A stretch of 42,873 nt of DNA from NCBI RefSeq assembly GCF_003173355.1, contig NZ_QGMY01000015.1, positions 1 to 42,873 on the forward strand, given 5' to 3'. The stretch's first letter is position 1. Every line of letters starts with the position of its first letter. Positions 5,355 to 42,873 of this stretch are shown here, piece after piece. A program made the translations under genes and the position numbers. The notes under the pieces are model-generated. The model did no database searches, was not told the DNA's origin, and saw only the letters and a program-made list of their open reading frames with translations. Source of the DNA: Methanospirillum lacunae (GTDB lineage: Archaea; Halobacteriota; Methanomicrobia; Methanomicrobiales; Methanospirillaceae).

Positions 5355-6920
5355 ATGAAACAATTTCTGACAATCCTTTCTATCCTGATAGCCTGCCTGG
5401 TAATTATTGGGATATCTACCGGATCATCACAGAATGAATCCCCATCGGCAATAGTAAAGACAGACGCCGGTTTGATATCAGGTGTTCAGCAGGATAATCT
5501 CCGTGTTTTTCACGGCATCCCATTTGCTGCACCACCAACCGGAGAACTACGATGGAAACCGCCAGCACCCCCGATACCCTGGGATGGTGTGAAAGAGACA
5601 AAGGAATATTCTGCAACCTGTCCACAGCGGGTTTCCACCGGTAAGACTCCCTCATCAGGATCACAGCCGCTCAACATGAGTGAAGACTGCTTGTGTCTCA
5701 ATGTCTGGACCCCGGCACAGAGTGATGACGAAAAGCTACCGGTTATGGTCTTTTTCTATGGAGGGGGATTTGCTGATGTGGCTGGATCCATGCCGGTCTA
5801 TAATGGAACCACTCTGGCAGAAAAGGACGTCATCGTGGTCACTCCAAATTACCGGCTTGGAGCGTTGGGTTTCCTTGCCCACCCTGAACTTGATGCCGAA
5901 TCTATCCATAATAGTTCAGGAAATTATGGAATCCTCGATCAGATCGCTGCCTTGCAGTGGGTCCAGCGTAACATCGAATCGTTTGGAGGTGACCCATCCC
6001 GGGTGACACTATTTGGGCAGTCAGCGGGAGCGGAAAGTATTCTCGTACATCTGGCAAGCCCGGAGAGTAAGGGTCTTTACCAGCAGGCAATTGTTCAGAG
6101 TGGTCCTTTCTGGGCGGATGGGGCGATTATCAATGCCACCCATTCCAAAGCGGATGCTGAACAATTTGGTGAATGGTTTGCACAAAAACTCGGATGCTCC
6201 GGGCCTGATGCCATTAAACAGATGCGAAATATCAGTCCAGAAGACCTGATCAATGCTACACCCTGGACACCGTCCTCATTCTGGAGTACCCACACGGTCA
6301 TGTTTGAGCCAACGGTTGACGGTTGGATTCTCCCTGACACCCTGGATACTGTGTTCCGTCTCCACCAGGAAAATCCGGTCCCTCTCATTATCGGAAACAA
6401 TGCCAATGACGGAACAACCCTTTCGGCTGATGCCAATATGACGGTTGATGAGTACATAACGTTCCTTACAAACCGGTTCGGGGATAAAGCAGGTGCGGTT
6501 CTTGAAAAATATCCTGCTAATACAACTGCTGACGTGCAGCTCAGACTGGCAGAGATCATGACTGATTACGATTTCAGTGACTCGGTGAAGTTTGCAGCTG
6601 GATCCATGGGAGATATCAGCCCTAACACGTTCATGTACCGGTACTCGTATGTCCTTCCCGGGCAGCCATTAGGTGCTTTTCATGGAAGTGAGACGTTACT
6701 GTTGTTTAATGTTCCAGGAGTTCAATCCGATCCGGCAGTGGCCGCGAATGTAGTAGATCTCTGGACACGGTTCGCGAAGACCGGAGATCCAAATGGTGGA
6801 ATGAATATTACCTGGCCGAGTTACACCCTGAAGAAAGATCAGTACCTTGATATTGATACGGTCCCGGTAGTGAAAACCGGGAATTCAACGATTGCTCTAT
6901 TACAAGACCTGGAATCATAA
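5355..6920 (+). CDS. secreted type-B carboxylesterase (paralog 1)
   Basis: The 521-aa alpha/beta hydrolase has an N-terminal signal peptide (about residues 1-25). Family markers are GIPFAAPPTGELRW, the EDCLCLNVWTP motif with its disulfide-type Cys, the nucleophile elbow GQSAGAES with Ser223, an acidic residue in NNANDGT (Asp352 where most relatives have Glu) and the catalytic His443 in AFHGSE. The oxyanion segment reads FFYGGGF, so Tyr replaces the usual His of HGGG. A likely substrate is a small ester outside the membrane, but the exact one cannot be read from sequence. AGGAGAG lies about 10 bases before the ATG. A T8 tract follows the stop. A close paralog lies on the opposite strand at 8969-10474, with a secreted phosphoesterase between them. 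Confidence 0.9.
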   Translation: MKQFLTILSILIACLVIIGISTGSSQNESPSAIVKTDAGLISGVQQDNLRVFHGIPFAAPPTGELRWKPPAPPIPWDGVKETKEYSATCPQRVSTGKTPSSGSQPLNMSEDCLCLNVWTPAQSDDEKLPVMVFFYGGGFADVAGSMPVYNGTTLAEKDVIVVTPNYRLGALGFLAHPELDAESIHNSSGNYGILDQIAALQWVQRNIESFGGDPSRVTLFGQSAGAESILVHLASPESKGLYQQAIVQSGPFWADGAIINATHSKADAEQFGEWFAQKLGCSGPDAIKQMRNISPEDLINATPWTPSSFWSTHTVMFEPTVDGWILPDTLDTVFRLHQENPVPLIIGNNANDGTTLSADANMTVDEYITFLTNRFGDKAGAVLEKYPANTTADVQLRLAEIMTDYDFSDSVKFAAGSMGDISPNTFMYRYSYVLPGQPLGAFHGSETLLLFNVPGVQSDPAVAANVVDLWTRFAKTGDPNGGMNITWPSYTLKKDQYLDIDTVPVVKTGNSTIALLQDLES

Positions 6921-34059: not shown

Positions 34060-34818
34060 ATGGTTTTTCACATGAATGGAAAGATTAGTTCGATCAGATG
34101 GGTGTTCATTCTTTTACTGACTACAATAATGATATCCACCGGAGTTGCAGATCCCGGGGGTGATTTTTATGCAGCTGGTGATTATCCTGCATCTATTGCA
34201 TGGTATGAGCAGGCTCTTCGTGGGTCGACAGGACCAGACCAGGTGCCTATTCTCAACAATATTGGAACCGGCTATATGGCTCTTCACCAGCAGGAAAAAG
34301 CTTTCAATTATTACTCACGTGCTGTGGAAATTGATCCTACATATGGCCGTGGGTGGATAAATCTGGGGGTCACTCAGGAAAAACTAGGCAGACCTGATGA
34401 TGCACTCCAGAGTTATGACCGTGTTTCAGCTGTAAACCCAGAAATTTTTGCAGAAGCAATGGTTAAAAAGGGGACTCTTCTATCCTCTCGGGGAAAGTTA
34501 ACAGATGCTCTTTTCGCATTTCGCCAGGGTGAAGCAGGAGCAAGAGGACAGGTTCTTGTCGACCTCTATACGGGCATTGGGGCCATAGAGTTCATGCAAA
34601 AGAATTTAGACGCCGCTGAAACGAATTTTCAAAAAGCAATAGATGAAGATCAACAGGGAGCTGCTCTTGCATGGACAAACCTTGGTGTGCTCAAAATTTC
34701 CAAGGGAGAGTATACTGATGCAAAGCATGCTTTTGAGACTGCTATTCTTCATGATAAGGCTGGGAAAACAAATGCTGTAGTTTATCTGAAAAAAATTCAG
34801 GCAATGGGGGTGGCATAA
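34060..34818 (+). CDS. exported TPR protein, first gene of an exported-protein operon
   Basis: The 252-aa product has a signal peptide (WVFILLLTTIMISTGVADPG). About five TPR units follow, such as NNIGTGYMALHQQEKAFNYYSRAVEIDPTYG, split here as NNIGTGYMALHQQ and KAFNYYSRAVEIDP. The later ones are GWINLGVTQEKLGRPDDAL and AWTNLGVLKISKGEYTDAK. ATGs at 34060 and 34072 are both possible starts; neither has a clear ribosome binding site. Its TAA overlaps the ATG of the next gene by one base (TAATG), so translation is probably coupled. It likely scaffolds the assembly of the beta-helix protein or other surface proteins. Confidence 0.82.
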   Translation: MVFHMNGKISSIRWVFILLLTTIMISTGVADPGGDFYAAGDYPASIAWYEQALRGSTGPDQVPILNNIGTGYMALHQQEKAFNYYSRAVEIDPTYGRGWINLGVTQEKLGRPDDALQSYDRVSAVNPEIFAEAMVKKGTLLSSRGKLTDALFAFRQGEAGARGQVLVDLYTGIGAIEFMQKNLDAAETNFQKAIDEDQQGAALAWTNLGVLKISKGEYTDAKHAFETAILHDKAGKTNAVVYLKKIQAMGVA

Positions 34819-37229
34819 TGAACTATCGCATCATTTTATCGATATGTGTAGTTCTTTTTGGTGTGTGCATCCCCGGGATTTTAGCTGATGGAAATTCTAC
34901 CAATTCTGGTGATATGACGGTCACATCTCCAGATATGCAACTTTCCTCCGAGCCCTCAACAGAGCAAAAACCAACTCAAACCATAACTGTAGAACCTACG
35001 GTGACGATGACTATAGAACCTACATCGACGCAGACCGGTGAAGAAACAATAACGCCTGAGGTTACTTCAACTGTCACTATTGAACCTACCTCTACACAGA
35101 CTGGTGAAGAAACATTAACGCCTGAACCAACTCCAACCGTCACTGTAAAACCTACTGATACGAGTGCATATTCTCCTGATGCGTCTATAGAGACACCTAA
35201 TACAAATTTGACTACAAATTCCAATGATTCAATTGGATCATCTGAAACAAATAGTTCGACTAAAGACGAAACCTCAGAACAAACATCAGGAAAACAGAAT
35301 ACATCCCAATTAGGTACTCCGGTGATGACCTCGTTTTCTTCATCTTCTGAAGAGGAGGAGAATTCTCAAGTCGTCACCCTGGGGACAGTGATAGTTAGCA
35401 GCAGTGGATCTTCGAATGTCATTTCAATCAACCAGACTGGTGGAATTGCAGGCAATGCCGGGTATACCTGGACTTCTTCAGATTCATACATCATTTCAAG
35501 CCCTGGTTCCTATCGACTTGATGAAGATATTTCTACATCTGCCACGTATGCGATTCAAATCGTTGCTTCTGATGTTTCTCTTGATGGGAATGGTCATGCC
35601 ATTACTGGTGATGGATGGTCAGGAACCGCTGGAGTAGAAGTTAATTCCGGAGCTAATAATGTAGTAATCGAAAATATCGGATTGGTATCAGGATATTATT
35701 TTGGTACTGGTATTGAATCAGGGGCTGATGATACCACGATTCGCAATAACAGTATTAGTGAGAGTTTCCGTGCAATCCATACTACCGGCTTAAATTCTAC
35801 AATCGACGAGAATTCAATAGATGGTGGTGGATATTACGGGTGGGGAGCAAAAGGAATAGAAACATCGGGAAATTATGCAAAGACCACCAATAATTCAATA
35901 ACCGGGACTGCAATGGGTATAGAATCCCATGGGAAAGGTGCTGCCATCTCTAACAATACTATTGATCAGAACTATGACACCGGGATCTATTCAGCCAGTG
36001 GCACGACAAATACACAGACCATCATATCAAACAATTCTATTAGTGGTACTGGCGGAGCAAATAATGGAATTGACTCAGAAGCTGACAATACGAGTATTCT
36101 AAATAATGTTGTAAAAGGATATTCGGTTGGGACACTAAATTCTGGCACTGGTATTAATTCAGAGGGAACTAATTCAGTTATTGAAGGAAATAATGTTTCC
36201 GATAATGTTCAAGGAATAGCCACAACCGGAAATAATGTCATAATAAGTCAGAATACGGTCTATGATAACTCTGGCGACGGAATTTCATTAGGGTCTGGAG
36301 ATAATAGAACAATTACCAAAAATACAATCACTGAAAATAAAATCGGGATCAATATTTCTGACAATTATAAGTTAACGGATATAAATAGTAATATAATTCG
36401 AAACAATGATGAAGGAATTCACATTACCAATGAAGGCGGTGATGGTGATGGATATATTTTCAATAATTATCTTGGTAATGAAGAGAATATTGGAGGAGAC
36501 GGGGATGCAAGCGTCTTTAAATGGAATGTATACCCGACGTTAATGCCAAATGTAGTTGGTGGTCCGAACTTAGCAGGAAATTACTGGAGTAACAAAACTG
36601 AAACCGGGTGGTCTGACCAGCAGGAGCAAAATGAAAATGGATACACTACGACGCCCTATCAGATTGCTACGGAGGTATTTGATTTCGCCCCATTGGTAAA
36701 GACAACAACCCCTCCTACTCCAACTACTTCTCCATCGCCAACGCCAACTGTTTCTCCTACTCCCACAATTTCTCCCACACCTACTATAACCTCTACACCC
36801 ATTCCTCAGTCTGATATTCCTAATCGTATATCCGAACCCTCGTCATCCAACCCCGGGATCCATCTAGGTATAGTGACTGTATCACTCCCACCGGAGACAA
36901 AACCCGGAGATGTTGCAGAATTACAACTCACATTAGAGAATTCGGGCTCAACCACTCTCTCCAAGGATGCGAGAATTATTCTGTCTCCAATAAACCCTCT
37001 GGCAAAAATAGTAGGTGAACAACCTGCAATATATGAAAACGGAAAGTATCTTCTCACATTTGAGATTCAGATTCCTAAAGATCCTGGCACCTATATTTAC
37101 ATTTTTAATCCTGTGTATTTCGCAAAAGATCCAACAACAGGAGAAGATATCCGTATTCCGATAGGAGATCCTGTTAAGTTCACGGTAACTGTGGGATCGG
37201 ATGGATCTGTGGTGGTGACTTCTTCATGA
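34818..37229 (+). CDS. exported parallel beta-helix (NosD/PbH1-like) surface protein
   Basis: The 803-aa protein has a signal peptide (residues 1-23) and a Thr/Pro/Glu-rich stalk (about 40-175) with two tandem copies of a 22-residue unit (IEPTSTQTGEET). A right-handed beta-helix region (about 200-625) has many NNSI-, NNTI- and NNVV-type turns, such as TIRNNSISES and VIEGNNVSDN. A second linker of TPTxSPTPT repeats (about 631-665) leads to an Ig-like domain (about 680-795) resembling CARDB/NEW3 folds. No PGF-CTERM or sortase-type anchor is visible. The many N-x-S/T sequons suit N-glycosylation. Such proteins may bind or process polysaccharide, or act as adhesins. It overlaps its downstream neighbour by 4 bases. 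Confidence 0.82.
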   Translation: MNYRIILSICVVLFGVCIPGILADGNSTNSGDMTVTSPDMQLSSEPSTEQKPTQTITVEPTVTMTIEPTSTQTGEETITPEVTSTVTIEPTSTQTGEETLTPEPTPTVTVKPTDTSAYSPDASIETPNTNLTTNSNDSIGSSETNSSTKDETSEQTSGKQNTSQLGTPVMTSFSSSSEEEENSQVVTLGTVIVSSSGSSNVISINQTGGIAGNAGYTWTSSDSYIISSPGSYRLDEDISTSATYAIQIVASDVSLDGNGHAITGDGWSGTAGVEVNSGANNVVIENIGLVSGYYFGTGIESGADDTTIRNNSISESFRAIHTTGLNSTIDENSIDGGGYYGWGAKGIETSGNYAKTTNNSITGTAMGIESHGKGAAISNNTIDQNYDTGIYSASGTTNTQTIISNNSISGTGGANNGIDSEADNTSILNNVVKGYSVGTLNSGTGINSEGTNSVIEGNNVSDNVQGIATTGNNVIISQNTVYDNSGDGISLGSGDNRTITKNTITENKIGINISDNYKLTDINSNIIRNNDEGIHITNEGGDGDGYIFNNYLGNEENIGGDGDASVFKWNVYPTLMPNVVGGPNLAGNYWSNKTETGWSDQQEQNENGYTTTPYQIATEVFDFAPLVKTTTPPTPTTSPSPTPTVSPTPTISPTPTITSTPIPQSDIPNRISEPSSSNPGIHLGIVTVSLPPETKPGDVAELQLTLENSGSTTLSKDARIILSPINPLAKIVGEQPAIYENGKYLLTFEIQIPKDPGTYIYIFNPVYFAKDPTTGEDIRIPIGDPVKFTVTVGSDGSVVVTSS
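35010..35141 (+). repeat. two tandem 66-bp repeats in the beta-helix gene
   Basis: Copies at 35010-35075 and 35076-35141 encode nearly the same 22 residues beginning TIEPTSTQTGEET. A shortened third relative (TVKPTDT) follows. Copy number may vary between strains by slippage. Confidence 0.7.
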
Positions 37230-38029
37230 GGTGGAGCTATCCTCTTATTCTTCTTATACTAATGGCAGGTGTATCTGCAGACCGGCTCCCACCAGGTATG
37301 CCTGAAACCCAGGTCTTTTCTATTGGATCTACTCTCAGTGTAACCGGAATCACTGATCAATCTACACAAATGGATTGGACTTCATCAAGAGGATCTCCGC
37401 TTGAAAGCACTACCTTTAACAGTTCGGATCTCATCTCACTCGTTCAGTACCATGACTCGCTTATGGGTAACGGTGGAACTGTTGTTGAAGTAAAAAATTT
37501 CGATTTTGGTTCAGGTTCACAGTCTCGTTCGATGTATAACATCGAGAGCGAAAAAGTACTCACATATAACAGCCGCGAAGGTTCACTTCTCCTGGGCTCT
37601 GAGACTCTGATGATGGATAATATGGGTAATAGCACGAGTGATTCACTCCCTATCAGGTGTGTTTTCTCAGATCAAAATGCCATTCTGATGCCTGCGTTCT
37701 GCAATATTGTCCAGGCAAAAAGTGATCTTATCAACATAAACCAGGCGAAAGTTTCAACCAAGGGCGAGATCAGATCAGCAGGCGGGTTCAGCACTTCAGC
37801 GGCTATGAATTACCGGATTGCAGTCACGGCTGACAAGAATGTGCCTGCACATGGCACCGTCAGAACTGAGTTTGCAGGAAGTATCATGGAAGCCCGGGAT
37901 ACGAATCTGTCAGAAAACACCTGGTACAAGACCGCTGCAACTAATTCATGGAAAGATAAAACCGAAGTGGCCGGGGAGGTTAGGAATCTGCAGAAGACGT
38001 TCGGGTATGTGTCCGGGATGAGGGTGTGA
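37226..38029 (+). CDS. exported protein of unknown function, third gene of the operon
   Basis: The 267-aa product has a short signal peptide (MRWSYPLILLILMAGVSADR). The mature part is rich in Ser, Thr and Asn with alternating hydrophobic residues, which suggests an all-beta extracellular protein. Two cysteines (IRCVFS and AFCNIV) could form a disulfide. It overlaps the beta-helix gene by 4 bases (ATGA), so it is co-translated with it. The protein at 39503 shares the MRW start, size class and Ser/Gly-rich beta character, but convincing homology cannot be shown by eye. Function unknown. Confidence 0.75.
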   Translation: MRWSYPLILLILMAGVSADRLPPGMPETQVFSIGSTLSVTGITDQSTQMDWTSSRGSPLESTTFNSSDLISLVQYHDSLMGNGGTVVEVKNFDFGSGSQSRSMYNIESEKVLTYNSREGSLLLGSETLMMDNMGNSTSDSLPIRCVFSDQNAILMPAFCNIVQAKSDLININQAKVSTKGEIRSAGGFSTSAAMNYRIAVTADKNVPAHGTVRTEFAGSIMEARDTNLSENTWYKTAATNSWKDKTEVAGEVRNLQKTFGYVSGMRV

Positions 38030-38050: not shown

Positions 38051-38317
38051 CTATTCATAGTTTTCTTTTTTTCCTACTGCTACCACGCAAATAATCAGTC
38101 GATCATCCATAATTCGATATGTCAGGCGGTATTCCCCGATTCTCATCCGATATCGTGGTTTATCCGGAGGGCATCCTTTAATCTTCCTTACATTATGGTA
38201 ATGAAATGGATCACTCGCAAGATTTTCAAGAGCGATCTCAATTCGTATTCGGGTTGTTATGGGTAGTTTGATAAAAGATTTTTCAGCCCGATGGGTGAAT
38301 TGTACGCGGTACTCCAT
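38051..38317 (-). CDS. RelE/ParE-family toxin
   Basis: The 88-aa protein matches RelE-type toxins. Examples are YRVQFTHRAEKSFIKLP at the start, a helix pair, IKGCPPDKPRYRMRIGEYRLTYRI in two parts (KPRYRMRIGEYRL), and a final strand LIICVVAVGKKENYE. Basic residues R58, R60 and R65 and the terminal Tyr fit an mRNA-cleaving RelE active site. Its ATG overlaps the antitoxin stop by one base (TAATG on the minus strand). RelE toxins cleave mRNA in the ribosomal A site; activity here is inferred. Confidence 0.9.
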   Translation of the reverse strand: MEYRVQFTHRAEKSFIKLPITTRIRIEIALENLASDPFHYHNVRKIKGCPPDKPRYRMRIGEYRLTYRIMDDRLIICVVAVGKKENYE

Positions 38318-38574
38318 TAATTCCCCAGGGATTTTCTCACCTGGTCATCACCAAGATCTTTCATAATATCCCGGAGATTACGGACACGACCTGCTTGAAT
38401 GTCTGCTTCACTAGCCTTGATATCATCACGTTCATCCTGAGTAAGTGGCTCATCATCATATGCAGCATCAACCAGACGATCAATGAGAGCATCAAATGTT
38501 TCTCTCGGATGAAGTTTGAGAGCTTGTAGTTTTTCTTTGGTCTCTGACCTGAGTTGAACGGTGGTCATTGCCAT
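38317..38574 (-). CDS. RHH-type antitoxin for the RelE-family toxin
   Basis: The 85-aa acidic protein begins MAMTTVQLRSETKEKLQAL, the beta-strand and helix of a ribbon-helix-helix DNA-binding domain. It continues HPRETFDALIDRLVDAAYDD and has an acidic helical tail that would bind the toxin. ATGs at 38574 and 38568 are both possible. A perfect inverted repeat lies just upstream and is the likely autoregulatory operator. Confidence 0.85.
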   Translation of the reverse strand: MAMTTVQLRSETKEKLQALKLHPRETFDALIDRLVDAAYDDEPLTQDERDDIKASEADIQAGRVRNLRDIMKDLGDDQVRKSLGN

Positions 38575-38596: not shown

Positions 38597-38982
38597 CCTG
38601 ATAATCATATCCACGAATAGAAGATCATCAAAAAGAAAAGGGCTATATTATCCCTTTATCCGAACAGATTCGAGAATCCAAGGAAGTGGAGTGTGAAAAA
38701 ACTGAAAACCTGAAAAAAACCGGATGGTTCTAAATATTTACTTTCAGACTGTTCCTGGTTTGTATACTTATTTACATTCTTACAACCTGCCAGAGATCTC
38801 GGCACATTTCCGGATTGTCTATTCAGGAGATCAGTTCACCTGGTTGCTGAGAAATAATCCTTCAATTCGCTTGGATTCCCCATCAGCCAACGATTTTTCT
38901 TTCGTCTGACACCCCGTTAAAATTACTTTTCCCTCCCGGTCGACATTATACATAGCCGTGAAATGCGGCAGGGAATCGAACA
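38597..38982. other. intergenic gap upstream of the orphan gene at 38983
   Basis: This stretch has no supported gene; a 61-codon frame at 38724-38909 has no family features. ATTATACAT at about 38945-38953 is a good TATA-like box about 34 bases before the start codon at 38983. Confidence 0.45.
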
Positions 38983-39486
38983 ATGGCAGACTTTACAACC
39001 AAGAGTGTCACCAAGTCAGCTGAGCGGAAACTCAGCTCACCCATCGACACCGTAGCAAACTTCCTGGCACTTGTTCAGGATGTGATCGAGAACAACCCCT
39101 GGGGATGCACATCGTATACATCTAACAACCAGACTGTTGCCGGGGTTGTCAGGGGATCTGAACACTACACCGGAAAGATCGTGTATGAGAACGCAGAAGC
39201 AAAGACGGTAGGGCAGATATCAGTCCGGGCTCCAACTTCTGCAGCTTTCAACACCGATATCAGCACGATAGTTGCTGCAACAGCAATAAACACCGCAATG
39301 GGGGGAACACCGTCACATGACAGTTCTGAAGACTCCTTCAGCTGTGCTCTCAAATGCCACAACGCAAACGGAGAGATCTTCTCTGTCACATTCAAGCGTG
39401 ACAGTGTTGTGGTATCAGGATACGAAGCAGACAGCATTCTCACCGGGATAGAAACCTGGGCAGATACCGTTGCTCTCCTGGCATAA
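38983..39486 (+). CDS. conserved-looking orphan protein of unknown function
   Basis: The 167-aa soluble protein is unrecognised. It has no signal peptide or membrane helix. It begins with a helical segment (SPIDTVANFLALVQDVIENNP), continues with mixed beta strands and two Cys in FSCALKCHN, and closes with strands and a helix (FSVTFKRDSVVVSGYEADS). A beta-rich fold with a C-terminal helix is likely. It has its own TATA-like box, and the next gene starts 16 bases later, so they may be co-transcribed. Confidence 0.7.
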   Translation: MADFTTKSVTKSAERKLSSPIDTVANFLALVQDVIENNPWGCTSYTSNNQTVAGVVRGSEHYTGKIVYENAEAKTVGQISVRAPTSAAFNTDISTIVAATAINTAMGGTPSHDSSEDSFSCALKCHNANGEIFSVTFKRDSVVVSGYEADSILTGIETWADTVALLA

Positions 39487-39502
39487 TCTCCAGGAGAGAA
39501 GA

Positions 39503-40033
39503 ATGCGATGGAATTATCTGGCAACCGGATCAGTTCTTCTGATCCTTGCCTCTCTTACCGGAGCAGAGTGCCTTGGCACAACCATCAGCACTGACGGAAC
39601 AGTCCATTTGTTTGGATCTGGTGAGGATGGCAACGGGTCGTTTGTATCCCGGGTTATGACCGTAGGGTCTTCCGAACTCTCCCGGATAATTACCGGTGAA
39701 GATTCAGGAACCCTGATGTCAGTTCATGGAACAGGTCCGGTGCTTTTCTCTGATTATACCACAAAAGACCGGGTATCTCCTCCTCCTCTGGCCTGTGTCT
39801 TTCTTGTTGACAGAGACAGTTCAGAACGTCGTTCACACATGTCTGCATCAGGTATCCTTGAACGCGGATCATATACCATGAGCCGTGAATCAGAACCGGA
39901 TCTCCTTGGAGAGAGCCTGATCAACGGGAGCGGGTTCATACTCCTGGAGTCAGGAATTGAAGGAAATATGACATCAGGATCAGAAGACTTTGTATCAGGA
40001 AACATGACAGTTCATGATACTGTCAGACTGTGA
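39503..40033 (+). CDS. exported protein of unknown function
   Basis: The start is set at the ATG at 39503, with GGAGAG about 5 bases upstream; the frame runs back to 39470 inside the previous gene. The 176-aa product has a signal peptide (MRWNYLATGSVLLILASLTGAEC), possibly a lipoprotein-type end with Cys23. A Ser/Gly/Thr-rich mature part (SADxHLFGSGEDGNGSF-like stretches, MTVGSS, GSGFILLESG, NMTVHDTV) suggests an all-beta extracellular protein. It resembles in type the protein at 37226. Function unknown. Confidence 0.7.
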   Translation: MRWNYLATGSVLLILASLTGAECLGTTISTDGTVHLFGSGEDGNGSFVSRVMTVGSSELSRIITGEDSGTLMSVHGTGPVLFSDYTTKDRVSPPPLACVFLVDRDSSERRSHMSASGILERGSYTMSRESEPDLLGESLINGSGFILLESGIEGNMTSGSEDFVSGNMTVHDTVRL

Positions 40034-40678
40034 TCAAATCGATATGGTTTTATAGGATCATTTGATTCTTTGAAAGTGAAATCTCACACCTGTGAACAGG
40101 AATAAGAGATCCGGGGATGAACCGATGAAAGTCCAGATCCCCCTGATCACTTTCGCACCGTTTACCTAATCTTTAGATACCAGGGTGCTGAATCACCATG
40201 TGTCATACGCAATCTGACCATGGCTCAGCACCTCTTCAGGCCAGATAAATCACGAAAATTCCCCGGTGTCGCAGTATTAAAAACAGCGTTCCTCATCAGG
40301 AGAATTTCTGTGATCCTGATCGTATCTGATGACCTGAACGCTTCGAATCAGGAGATCCTCGGGCTGAATTCATGGACAATATGCCTGATCCGGTTCAAGA
40401 GGAGACGGAGCAGTATGGCATCAGATCAGATGACATGGAGATGATAGTATACTAAAAATTGAAAAACCCCGCACAACACTTCACATTCTTGACCGGACGA
40501 GAAGATTGGCGGGGGTAAACTACCTGTATAATCTTAAGAGCGTTTGTATTTTTCTGTCATCATGGGGTCTTGCTCATGGATCGTGACTCTGTTCCCGGCA
40601 GATGGATCTCCGGGTCCGGTATCCACGCTCCTTCAGTGGGCTCTATACATCTCTCATTCAGATCAGGGGGTGGTCACG
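40034..40678. other. 645-base gap with no firm gene
   Basis: An imperfect hairpin ATCAAAT (40033-40039) / ATTTGAT (40060-40066) may end the preceding transcript. TAGTATACTA at 40445-40454 is a 10-base palindrome that resembles the centre of the toxin-antitoxin operator. A 74-codon frame at 40220-40444 lacks family features. The frame of the next gene is open from a TTG at 40544, but that part looks less protein-like. Confidence 0.45.
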
Positions 40679-41011
40679 ATGGCAGGAACTAGCCTCACTG
40701 CCCGGACTATTCTCTTTGATGCAGCAGCAGAACTTGATAAAAATGGTTACGTGTTTATCAGGGTTGCAGGCTCATCACGTCTGTTTGATCTTGTAGCCTG
40801 GAACAAAGAAAAGACCCTCTTTATTGCAGTCAGAAGAACCTGCAGCGGTGGAATATCCCGGTTTGCACGCGATGTCAGCCTGCTTGCATCTCTAGTCAAA
40901 GAGAGGACCCTGCCCGGGATTGTGCAGATTTGGGTCTTTGCCTCAAAAGAGTGGCAGAGATATCAGATTCTCCCTGGTGGAGCCTTGCTTATCAGAGGAG
41001 GGTTTTTATGA
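40679..41011 (+). CDS. small PD-(D/E)XK-like nuclease-fold protein, active site apparently degenerate
   Basis: Starting at the ATG at 40679 (upstream GGGGGTGG), the 110-aa protein has the layout of Hjc-like and related nuclease folds. A helix is followed by GYVFIRVAGSSRLFDLVAW with D37, then a strand LFIAVRRT where active enzymes read E/Q-x-K. Here the residues are A50-V51-R52, so the metal and Lys site seems lost or altered. Its stop overlaps the start of the primase-helicase gene by 4 bases (ATGA), so the two are probably translated together and may act together. The fold assignment is by pattern only. Confidence 0.6.
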   Translation: MAGTSLTARTILFDAAAELDKNGYVFIRVAGSSRLFDLVAWNKEKTLFIAVRRTCSGGISRFARDVSLLASLVKERTLPGIVQIWVFASKEWQRYQILPGGALLIRGGFL

Positions 41012-42873
41012 ATCACCCGACACGTTCAGCCTGCTCTATTCTCTTTGAGCCCGGTCAGACAGTCGAGGTAAGACTGATTGGAAAGCGGGGAACAGCATCC
41101 GGGTATTACAACAACTTTGACCGGCTCAGTGCTGATGCAGTCTCGTTTGACAACCGGGGCGAGTATGCAGGGGCTTATGTCACCCTCAACCCGGTGAACC
41201 CTAATCTGTTGGCACGTCGTGCCAACAGAATCGAAACCCGGCTCGGCAAAGACGAGAAGTCTGCTGGAGATAATGATATCCTCTCCCGGAGATGGCTTCC
41301 GATAGATATCGACCCGGTTCGACCCTCCGGAGTATCCTCGTCAGATTCAGAGCATGCAGCAGCGATAGAGAAAGCAGCACGGATTTCAGCATATCTTACT
41401 GATCTCGGATGGCCTGAGCCGGTCATGGCAGACTCAGGCAATGGGGCACACCTGTTATACCGGATAGATCTCCCAAACGATACCGAGTCCCGGGATCTTG
41501 TCAGAAGTATTCTTGAGACCCTGGATATTCTCTTTTCAGATGAGTTTTCAACCGTTGATACCTCGGTATACAACGCTGCCAGGATCTGGAAACTGTATGG
41601 GACAACCAGCAGAAAGGGAGACAATATTTCTTCACGACCGCACCGGAAAGCAGCGATACTCTCGGTTCCTGATGAACTGGAGATCGTCTGCCTCGATCTC
41701 CTATCTTCCCTGGCTACAATGCTACCACAACAGGAGTCAGAACCAGAAAAACCCGATAGTAAAGGCAAAGGCATGGGTCGAAAGACAGAGGGTGCAATAG
41801 ACCTTGCATCATGGCTTGATCGGAATTCTCTCGGGTACCGTCAGAAGGCATACGCAGGAGGATCGCTCTTTGTACTTGATCAGTGCCCATTCTCATCAGA
41901 CCATAAAAACGGTGCATATGCTATCCAGTTCTCAAACGGAGCCATCTTTGCCGGATGCCATCATTCTTCATGCGGAGGAGGAACACAACGATGGCCAGAA
42001 CTCAGGACGATGTTTGAGGGTCCTGAATCATCCCGTACCCGGAGTACCAATAAGACCAACAAGAACTCCGAATCCTCGTCCGTTCCTCTGAAACAGGATG
42101 ATATTCACGAAGTATCTGATGAGATTTCTAAAACCGCATCAGCAATTCTTCGAGGTGGCGATCCCCTCGCGTACATGCTTGAGACCTTTGCACTCGATCA
42201 TATCGGAGACCCGGTAGTGGCCGAATGCCTGGTGATGTCTCTTGCATCCAGGAAGGTGATAAATGCCCGGGGTCTGCATGTCTCGGTGACCGGGGAATCA
42301 GGTAAAGGGAAATCCCATGCCTTTGAGACGATGATGAACCAGGTACCCCTGGAGTTCAGGCTTGAAGGCAGGATGAGTGAGAAGGCCCTCTTCTACATCA
42401 AGGGAATGCAGCCGGGAAGTGTGATTGCTCTTGATGATGTTGCACTCTCCGACCAGATGCAGGAGATCCTCAAAGGTGTCACAACCTCGTTTCGTCGTCC
42501 GTTTACATACCGAACTGTGAGCAAGGACCGGGTAGGTGAGACCTGCATTATCCCTGAAAGGTGTGTCTGGTGGATTGCCAAGGTTGATGGGACAGGAGAC
42601 GATCAAGTCTGGAACAGGATGCTGACCTGCTGGATTGATGATTCAGAAGAGCAGGATGCAGCGGTTCTTGAGAGAACTCTTTCTGAGGCTGAAGGACTCA
42701 GGCCGGACAGGATAGATATCAGGGATGAGGCTCTGGTATGCCAGGAGATATGGAGACAGATATCACCTGCCTGGGTTGTTGTTCCATTTGCAAAGAAGAT
42801 AAGATTTTCATCGGCACTGAACCGGAGAAATCCTGATATGGTGCTCGATCTCGTGAAGGCTCATGCAACGCTC
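41008..42873 (+). CDS. primase-helicase (AEP-type primase, zinc site and AAA+ helicase), partial at the window end
   Basis: The frame is open from the ATG at 41008 to the last base (622 codons, no stop). The N-terminal part matches a primase-polymerase of the archaeo-eukaryotic type: D100 and D102 in LPIDIDPVRP, SGNGAHLLY (143-151, H148), and D184 in VDTSVYN followed by RIWKLYGTTSRKG. A zinc-like set follows with C293, H299, C317, H318 and C322 (CPFSSDH and GCHHSSC). The helicase part has Walker A GESGKGKS (429-436) and Walker B ALDD (D476/D477). Such fusions drive replication initiation of plasmids and viruses. GC content is like the chromosome. A cellular role, or residence in an integrated element, cannot be decided here. 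Confidence 0.85.
   Translation, partial: MNHPTRSACSILFEPGQTVEVRLIGKRGTASGYYNNFDRLSADAVSFDNRGEYAGAYVTLNPVNPNLLARRANRIETRLGKDEKSAGDNDILSRRWLPIDIDPVRPSGVSSSDSEHAAAIEKAARISAYLTDLGWPEPVMADSGNGAHLLYRIDLPNDTESRDLVRSILETLDILFSDEFSTVDTSVYNAARIWKLYGTTSRKGDNISSRPHRKAAILSVPDELEIVCLDLLSSLATMLPQQESEPEKPDSKGKGMGRKTEGAIDLASWLDRNSLGYRQKAYAGGSLFVLDQCPFSSDHKNGAYAIQFSNGAIFAGCHHSSCGGGTQRWPELRTMFEGPESSRTRSTNKTNKNSESSSVPLKQDDIHEVSDEISKTASAILRGGDPLAYMLETFALDHIGDPVVAECLVMSLASRKVINARGLHVSVTGESGKGKSHAFETMMNQVPLEFRLEGRMSEKALFYIKGMQPGSVIALDDVALSDQMQEILKGVTTSFRRPFTYRTVSKDRVGETCIIPERCVWWIAKVDGTGDDQVWNRMLTCWIDDSEEQDAAVLERTLSEAEGLRPDRIDIRDEALVCQEIWRQISPAWVVVPFAKKIRFSSALNRRNPDMVLDLVKAHATL

Follow-up and report, generated by a model that had tools for sequence, protein, structure and literature searches.

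A primase-helicase gene and a putatively inactive Hjc-type partner at a multi-copy, integrase-less locus of Methanospirillum lacunae

The closest described counterparts of the locus analyzed here are archaeal elements in which a primase of arCOG07809 is paired with an HJR protein of arCOG09441, the latter called an endonuclease (Makarova et al., 2014; PMC4158269). As given in the accessible part of that account, the primase (Mpal_2033 in Methanosphaerula palustris) is fused to a helicase, a helix-turn-helix (HTH) domain and a Zn finger, the helicase is called superfamily I and is listed as a DnaA-like AAA protein in Table 2, and several of the elements, although not all, have integrases and integration sites, with an integrated satellite virus suggested as their nature. 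The Methanospirillum lacunae contig NZ_QGMY01000015.1 (assembly GCF_003173355.1), of which the whole stretch of 42,873 nucleotides was analyzed on the forward strand (“the window”), ends inside a gene for a primase-helicase (c0) that follows a gene for a 110-amino-acid (aa) protein (c1). The upstream genes are labeled c2 and c3, the small genes after c0 are c4 and c5, and the integrase of the family is n0; G000 is the M. lacunae genome, C15 is the window contig, L numbers are loci, and the genomes G001–G011 were placed in the same genus as G000. We consider it probable that the locus is a long-resident copy, without an integrase, of a family of integrative elements of the Methanomicrobiales, in which c0 would form a replication module with a catalytically dead c1 as its DNA-binding subunit. 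The parts of the c1–c0 pair are as follows.

40679–41011, + strand: c1, a 110-aa protein with a predicted Hjc (PD-(D/E)XK-like) fold (Pfam and PDB profile matches, motif table and alignment)
41008–42873, + strand: c0, primase-helicase, 622 aa of about 1050, the 3′ part lying past the contig edge and the remainder opening contig C9 or C2
41011–41718, + strand: c0 residues 2–237, predicted AEP primase-polymerase domain with D100-x-D102, H148 and D184 (predicted structure and alignment)
41884–41973, + strand: c0 residues 293–322, putative zinc-binding cluster C-x5-H...C-x-H-x2-C (invariant columns C293, H299, C317, H319 and C322)
42100–42873 (contig edge), + strand: c0 residues 365–622, predicted MCM-like AAA+ ATPase with Walker A GESGKGKS and Walker B LDD (predicted structure)

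The domain composition of c0 is suggested mainly by its predicted structure. Pfam searches gave weak AAA matches only, a search of the PDB by sequence gave no useful match, and PHROGs, NCBIfam and padloc returned nothing over threshold for either c0 or c1. The AlphaFold model of the window part of c0 was built from 34 sequences (33 of 80 named loci plus the window) and has a mean pLDDT of 87.3 and a pTM of 0.54. Residues 2–237 of the model resemble the AEP domain of the cyanophage S-2L PrimPol (6zp9; Z 16.6, root-mean-square deviation (rmsd) 2.5, 173 aligned of 185), and among the 34 sequences D100, D102 and H148 are invariant and D184 nearly so; we take D-x-D, H and D to be the catalytic motifs of AEP enzymes. 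The zinc ligands are likewise invariant and Walker A is invariant or nearly so. Residues 365–622 resemble MCM ATPase domains (best Z 17.9, rmsd 3.4, 240 aligned), the first 42 structural matches of this predicted motor being MCM proteins throughout (Z 16.6–17.9), and MCM chains also rank first in Foldseek with an E-value of about 1e-7. By sequence, the Pfam MCM model (PF00493) does not match c0, and in the M. lacunae genome it finds one strong place on contig C2 and three weak ones, none of which is a c0; the motor is therefore called MCM-like by fold only. According to the model, c0 may work like an MCM, and we do not file it as an MCM helicase. In full-length copies of c0, the C-terminal region, which lies past the contig edge in the window gene, has four C-x2-C pairs that are nearly invariant, and an HTH domain is represented by weak matches alone (HTH_26 and MarR_2, E 0.12–0.15). 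The model thus points to c0 as a fusion in which an MCM-like AAA+ ATPase follows an AEP primase-polymerase and a zinc site; the primase, the zinc site and an AAA+ motor had been proposed in a previous reading of this DNA from the letters alone (the sequence-only reading), and the predicted structure and the invariant ligands lend them support. The gene is under purifying selection, with ratios of nonsynonymous to synonymous substitution rates (dN/dS) of 0.12–0.29 in five pairs. An AEP domain similar to that of c0 (45% identity over 53% of the query) is also found on a Methanomethylovorans plasmid (NC_019972.1, 251853–254372), in a protein annotated with HEAT repeats.

The partner protein c1 points to an Hjc fold by sequence profiles. 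Hjc is the top Pfam match of the window copy, although under the curated cut-off (E 0.0052; 17.2 vs. 21.1 bits), and a search of the whole M. lacunae genome with the same model places two c1 copies over that cut-off (21.6 and 21.2 bits). Comparison of a 17-copy c1 profile with the PDB gave seven matches at E-values up to 1, each of them weak but forming a consistent set, including three named Holliday junction resolvases (1gef, 1ob8 and 2wcz; E 0.025, 0.1 and 0.68, respectively) and two structures, 2eo0 and 3fov, that are presumably PD-(D/E)XK-like. On these grounds we propose that c1 descends from a Holliday junction resolvase of the Hjc type. The Pfam Hjc model found no Hjc in the M. lacunae genome beyond the c1 copies; it also found no match in Methanosarcina acetivorans, so the absence of a classical Hjc is perhaps normal for the clade.

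Judged by its residues, c1 is mostly catalytically dead, and its pairing with c0 has been kept. In the alignment, the window copy has A-V-R at the E-x-K site of Hjc, as the sequence-only reading had noticed, and the tetrad of E, D and (E/Q)-x-K reads L-D-A-R, such that only the D remains and three of the four catalytic residues are gone. Together with the Hjc profile matches, this agrees with the previous suggestion of an inactive PD-(D/E)XK-like partner. In a motif table of 67 copies (51 from the named loci and the window and 16 from G000, G007 and G001, with 29 rows of a related Methanoregula cluster, n3, set aside), 62 have an incomplete set and five have the full one (L146, L163, L184, L203 and L205), whereas none of the 17 copies from G000, G007 and G001 does. 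All five complete copies read E-D-Q-K, Q-x-K being an accepted form of the Hjc catalytic motif. In a tree of c0 (51 rows), the corresponding loci lie at two separate places inside degenerate groups, four of them together in a small Methanoregulaceae-side group of elements and the other one on a separate branch, and simple parsimony requires three changes for the complete-set label. If the four-residue set was not regained, the tree would imply at least seven losses within the group of 24 rows that contains these loci, a count that is a reading of a quick search made without bootstrap and with some weakly supported forks. The c1 gene has dN/dS ratios of 0.18–0.27 in the three pairs with enough divergence.

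The association of c1 with c0 extends well beyond the window. The open reading frame of c0 (40930–42873) is open to the window edge, and its start codon ATG lies inside the stop codon of c1 (ATGA at 41008–41011), both as noted before from the letters. Among 81 loci, namely the window and the best 80 of 275 fetched by a c0 profile, profiles detected c1 in 51, c3 in 26 and n0 in 22, many of the loci being cut by contig ends. In 49 of the 51 loci with c1, the two genes are 500 bp or less apart, whereas c0 starts at or before the c1 stop in only six by an approximate measure. Since the overlap is confined to these six, joint function is argued from the conserved neighborhood: the pair is kept across many copies and genera, which supports a joint function of the kind previously drawn from the overlap, although the overlap itself is weakened as proof of it. 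Among a set of 41 genomes of relatives, c0 was found in 29, c3 in 37 and c1 in 19 (by a single-sequence query); integrases of the n0 type were counted in 36, a figure that takes in weakly matching recombinases of other kinds.

Within the M. lacunae genome, a search with 39500–42873 returned 26 matching places. Nine copies of c0 with the N-terminal part were recognized by profile, and eight of them have c1 and, nearby, c3. The last 63 bases of the window contig are identical to those of contig C19, and contigs C9 and C2 open with c0 tails that are 96% identical over 400 bases. The window contig thus ends here because the gene is a repeat at which the assembler stopped, and the window copy must continue, past an unassembled stretch, into C9 or C2. 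Past the c0 tail, C9 has c5 followed by a chemotaxis receptor gene, and C2 has c5 followed by hsdR, hsdS and hsdM of a type I restriction-modification operon. The idea that the window edge marks the beginning of a second integrated plasmid or virus is consequently rejected, the edge being an assembly break inside a repeat (C15/C19 and C9/C2). No n0-family integrase came up in profile searches of 18 kb from C9 or C2, and the seven flank proteins scanned include no recognized capsid, terminase or partition protein.

The divergence between copies is uneven. Between the window copy and that on C19, the synonymous divergence (dS) is 0.012 for c1, 0.35 for c0 and 0.72 for c2, and between two copies in G007 (L045 and L046) it is 0.012 for c1 and 0.88 for c0. 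Sliding comparisons between copies show blocks of 98–99% identity beside much lower ones. Such a mosaic is best read as gene conversion, which suggests that the copies recombine with one another. The flanks of some copies are common to G000 and G007, the two Methanospirillum species, and some cross-species pairs are mutual nearest relatives in the c0 tree, so many of the copies look like old residents. The flanking DNA therefore fits ordinary chromosome conserved in relatives, a possibility that the sequence-only reading had named, for some of the copies, but not for the family as a whole, as its other members are integrative elements. No intact n0 was found among the M. lacunae copies, and the sole strong n0 match in that genome is a broken remnant with in-frame stops (C2, 381443–382598). 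At L031, the c0 C-terminal tail and c5 recur in displaced form (5475–6107, − strand) some 3.4 kb downstream of the first tail, an arrangement that insertion of cargo at the c0 3′ end might produce, and stand-alone c0 tails are present in other genomes as well.

Several loci outside M. lacunae have the features of integrative elements. The integrase n0 is a tyrosine recombinase (PF00589, E 1e-25), and in 13 of the 22 loci bearing it (a count that includes fragments and loci cut at n0; 18 of them were aligned) a tRNA gene is located directly upstream (Thr 5, Met 3, Leu 2, Glu 2 and Phe 1). In G023, the order is tRNA-Thr, n0, c1, c0, a type III methylase and restriction subunit, c3 and a repeat, the last being a 16-bp exact copy of the tRNA 3′ end at 22.8 kb from the tRNA gene (BLAST E 0.001). 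A locus of M. stamsii (L157) holds n0, c1, c0, c5, c3 and c2 together and so links the Methanospirillum copies with the integrative elements. Restriction systems are found beside several copies. A scan for defense models matched 408 models downstream and 193 in an equal-sized upstream control, which is no clear enrichment because these are tallies per model and not distinct hits, and the top models match only 4 and 6 of 92 proteins. Both sets (92 proteins each) consist of non-overlapping longest frames, some of them antisense frames in GC-rich DNA, and exclude n0, proteins outside 230–1150 aa, proteins at the low end of a locus and those with family labels. No capsid, terminase or packaging gene was recognized among 20 proteins, some of them integrases or window proteins, or among the 25 families listed for the 92 downstream proteins.

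Upstream of the pair, the window contains two further genes that recur in other copies.

38955–38969, + strand: hairpin in the leader of c3, just upstream of the Shine-Dalgarno-like GGGA (leader alignment and folding)
38983–39486, + strand: c3, a conserved 167-aa partner protein (copies in the same genome and in relatives; confident model)
39500–40033, + strand: c2, a protein of about 177 aa whose hydrophobic N terminus resembles a signal peptide; the gene follows c3 (and is seen next to it in Methanospirillum copies)

In a sample of the phylum, c3 occurs in 33 of 35 genomes of Methanomicrobiales and in none of 161 others, and c0 in 21 of the 35 and in six of the 161, these six being partial. 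The predicted structure of c3 is confident (pLDDT 92.8) and has no clear match, with a best Z of 7.2 and no Foldseek hit of E < 0.001 in PDB or BFVD, a comparison that leaves out families not listed there and is no proof of a new fold. A capsid assignment for c3 was rejected on the same values. The start of c3 is preceded by a hairpin adjoining the Shine-Dalgarno-like stretch. Across 21 leaders (the c3 alignment has 22 rows), the six stem pairs are formed in 66.7% of cells compared to 32–52% when the stem is slid, and the covariation score is 0.290 compared to at most 0.191, with 0 of 500 shuffles as high, bearing in mind that the stem columns were picked as the best on the same alignment and that shuffle counts are not probabilities. 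Pair changes on both sides and further pair types are not above shuffles (119 and 185 of 500, respectively). The mean folding z of the leaders is −2.2, with three of the 21 above zero.

An Orc1/Cdc6-type gene neighbors c3 in four of nine closely examined loci, eight of which come from genomes without a c0 match. Such neighbors were noted at L126, L162, L227, L229 and L230, sometimes divergently transcribed, and the three tested have a Cdc6_lid domain. Several contigs or loci end inside c3 (L149, L154, L177, L191 and others), which hints at near-identical repeats of c3 itself in the genomes concerned. Just upstream of c3 in the window lies a toxin-antitoxin pair (38051–38574, − strand), which comprises a ParE-type toxin (38051–38317, E 7e-10) and a DUF7557 antitoxin-like protein (38317–38574, E 2e-10). 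In several copies, a TPR protein, a NosD/beta-helix surface-like protein and a secreted-looking protein of 267 aa precede c3 (window 34060–38029; L029, L031 and L039), and the repeated block may accordingly extend beyond c3–c5.

In the interpretation that we prefer, c0 would be the replication protein of the element, with the AEP domain making a primer, the MCM-like AAA+ ring unwinding DNA, and the zinc modules expected to aid binding of the origin or template. The catalytic set of c1 would have been lost many times with the gene staying beside c0, and the dead protein would bind branched or forked DNA and position or load c0, such that recognition replaces cutting; a dead c1 as a DNA-binding subunit of the replication protein fits these observations and is the reading that we infer. 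Full elements would enter a tRNA gene by means of the tyrosine integrase, carry c3 and, in some cases, restriction systems. In Methanospirillum, the integrase may have been lost from expanding lineages, whose copies persist and recombine with each other.

Several observations weigh against this interpretation. We know of no free form of the element, and c3 also occurs in genomes without c0. Searches at pattern sensitivity confirmed no c0 or c3 relative in 2.9 million viral contigs. A right-hand repeat was found at only one of 11 integrase-tRNA places, although at some of the other ten the contig or stretch ends first, and a chance-like 15-bp match nearby scored E 0.004. The copies in M. lacunae lack an intact n0, the broken one on C2 having stops. 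For very similar pairs, the dN/dS of c1 is high or uninformative (1.33 for the window copy vs. C19, at a dS of 0.012, and 0.38 and 0.58 in two others). In the available part of a study of ICETh2, a primase mutant still replicated that element (PMC7693054), so the PrimPol of a mobile element need not be its replicase.

That same account, in which the ICETh2 PrimPol limits DNA uptake and is dispensable for replication of the element (PMC7693054, available part), lends itself to a different function, in which the module is a barrier to incoming DNA, with single strands of foreign origin as the substrate of PrimPol and with resident copies that have been domesticated as defense genes beside restriction systems. 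This would suit copies that are resident, lack an integrase, in some cases occupy loci common to two species, and in several cases adjoin restriction genes. We regard it as unlikely, because the integrase, tRNA site and flanking repeat fit a replication module belonging to the element, padloc gave no model for c0 or c1, and the defense content downstream is not clearly above that of the upstream control. The integrated satellite virus proposed for elements with this primase (PMC4158269, accessible part) leads to the view that the element is a satellite or provirus using the capsid of another virus, the products of c3 and c2 then serving in the virion or in entry. The strong conservation of c3 and its structured leader agree with this, but the negative search of viral contigs, the absence of c3 from 50,697 phage records searched, the lack of a clear capsid match to its model, and its occurrence beside Orc1/Cdc6-type genes in c0-less genomes make it decidedly unlikely.

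Two further proposals concern c1 and the status of the module. The label “HJR family endonuclease” implies that c1 is still a nuclease, which would cut via altered residues or upon activation by c0, and the five complete copies, as well as others that keep three of the four positions, would be compatible with that. We find this very unlikely in view of the L-D-A-R of the window copy, the incomplete sets of all 17 copies from the Methanospirillum set, and replacements that are mutually unlike (H, N or G at D; A, R, C or V at E/Q). A more far-reaching version of the preferred interpretation is that a resolvase captured by a PrimPol-MCM module became a non-cutting subunit for fork or junction recognition at least seven times independently, provided the set was not regained, and that the integrase-less Methanospirillum copies are a recombining, host-resident family of mini-replisomes with a cellular role; we consider this possible but rather doubtful. 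The probable reading, to which we return, is that of an integrase-less, long-resident copy of an integrative element.

If true, this reading would correct a published label, as the residues of the “endonuclease” partner would mark it as mostly dead, while it has stayed coupled to the primase throughout an order of methanogens. A single chain combining a primase and an MCM-like motor, together with a small partner of junction-resolvase fold, would be a compact model of how replication starts on archaeal elements, and the five natural copies of c1 with the full set are ready controls for what the fold does without cutting. The c3 gene, which nearly all sampled Methanomicrobiales have and whose product shows no clear match to a known fold, could serve as a marker for finding elements. 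Among the open-access papers searched, PMC4158269 alone names arCOG07809, Mpal_2033 or arCOG09441, and no report of c1 inactivation, of an MCM-like fold in this family or of c3 was found there by titles and the starts of abstracts.

The locus shares traits with several known systems. In the SCCmec system of CCPol, MP and Cch2, as described in the available text, an element likewise encodes a priming enzyme, a helicase and a small partner that gives priming ability; unlike in c0–c1, however, the polymerase CCPol belongs to the A family and is not fused to the helicase, and MP is not stated there to be nuclease-like, such that the relation is one of analogy and not of membership (PMC7581432). 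The AEP families of the PrimPol-PV1 account are AEP domains of mobile elements fused to helicases, MCM-like ones included, and the archaeal proteins named in the available part of that account are PolpTN2-like, PrimQH, PrimPol proper and one all3500-like protein, with no mention of the c0 family (PMC5862659). Archaeal Hjc (PF01870) is similar in fold to c1 by profile; unlike Hjc, the window c1 lacks the E and the (E/Q)-x-K and adjoins a primase, and the full catalytic set is present in five of 67 copies. The greatest likeness is to the arCOG07809/arCOG09441 elements, which, in the accessible part of their description, share an AEP primase fused to a helicase-type ATPase, a C-terminal Zn finger, an HJR partner and family integrases, the identity of the c0 family with arCOG07809 resting on the published description of Mpal_2033. 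Unlike in that description, the predicted fold of the motor here is MCM-like, most c1 copies are dead by their residues, the copies in M. lacunae have no integrase, and c3 belongs to the set. The locus thus represents a largely known kind of element, in which four features look new: the repeated catalytic loss of c1, a motor of predicted MCM-like fold, c3, and the occurrence in multiple copies that lack an integrase.

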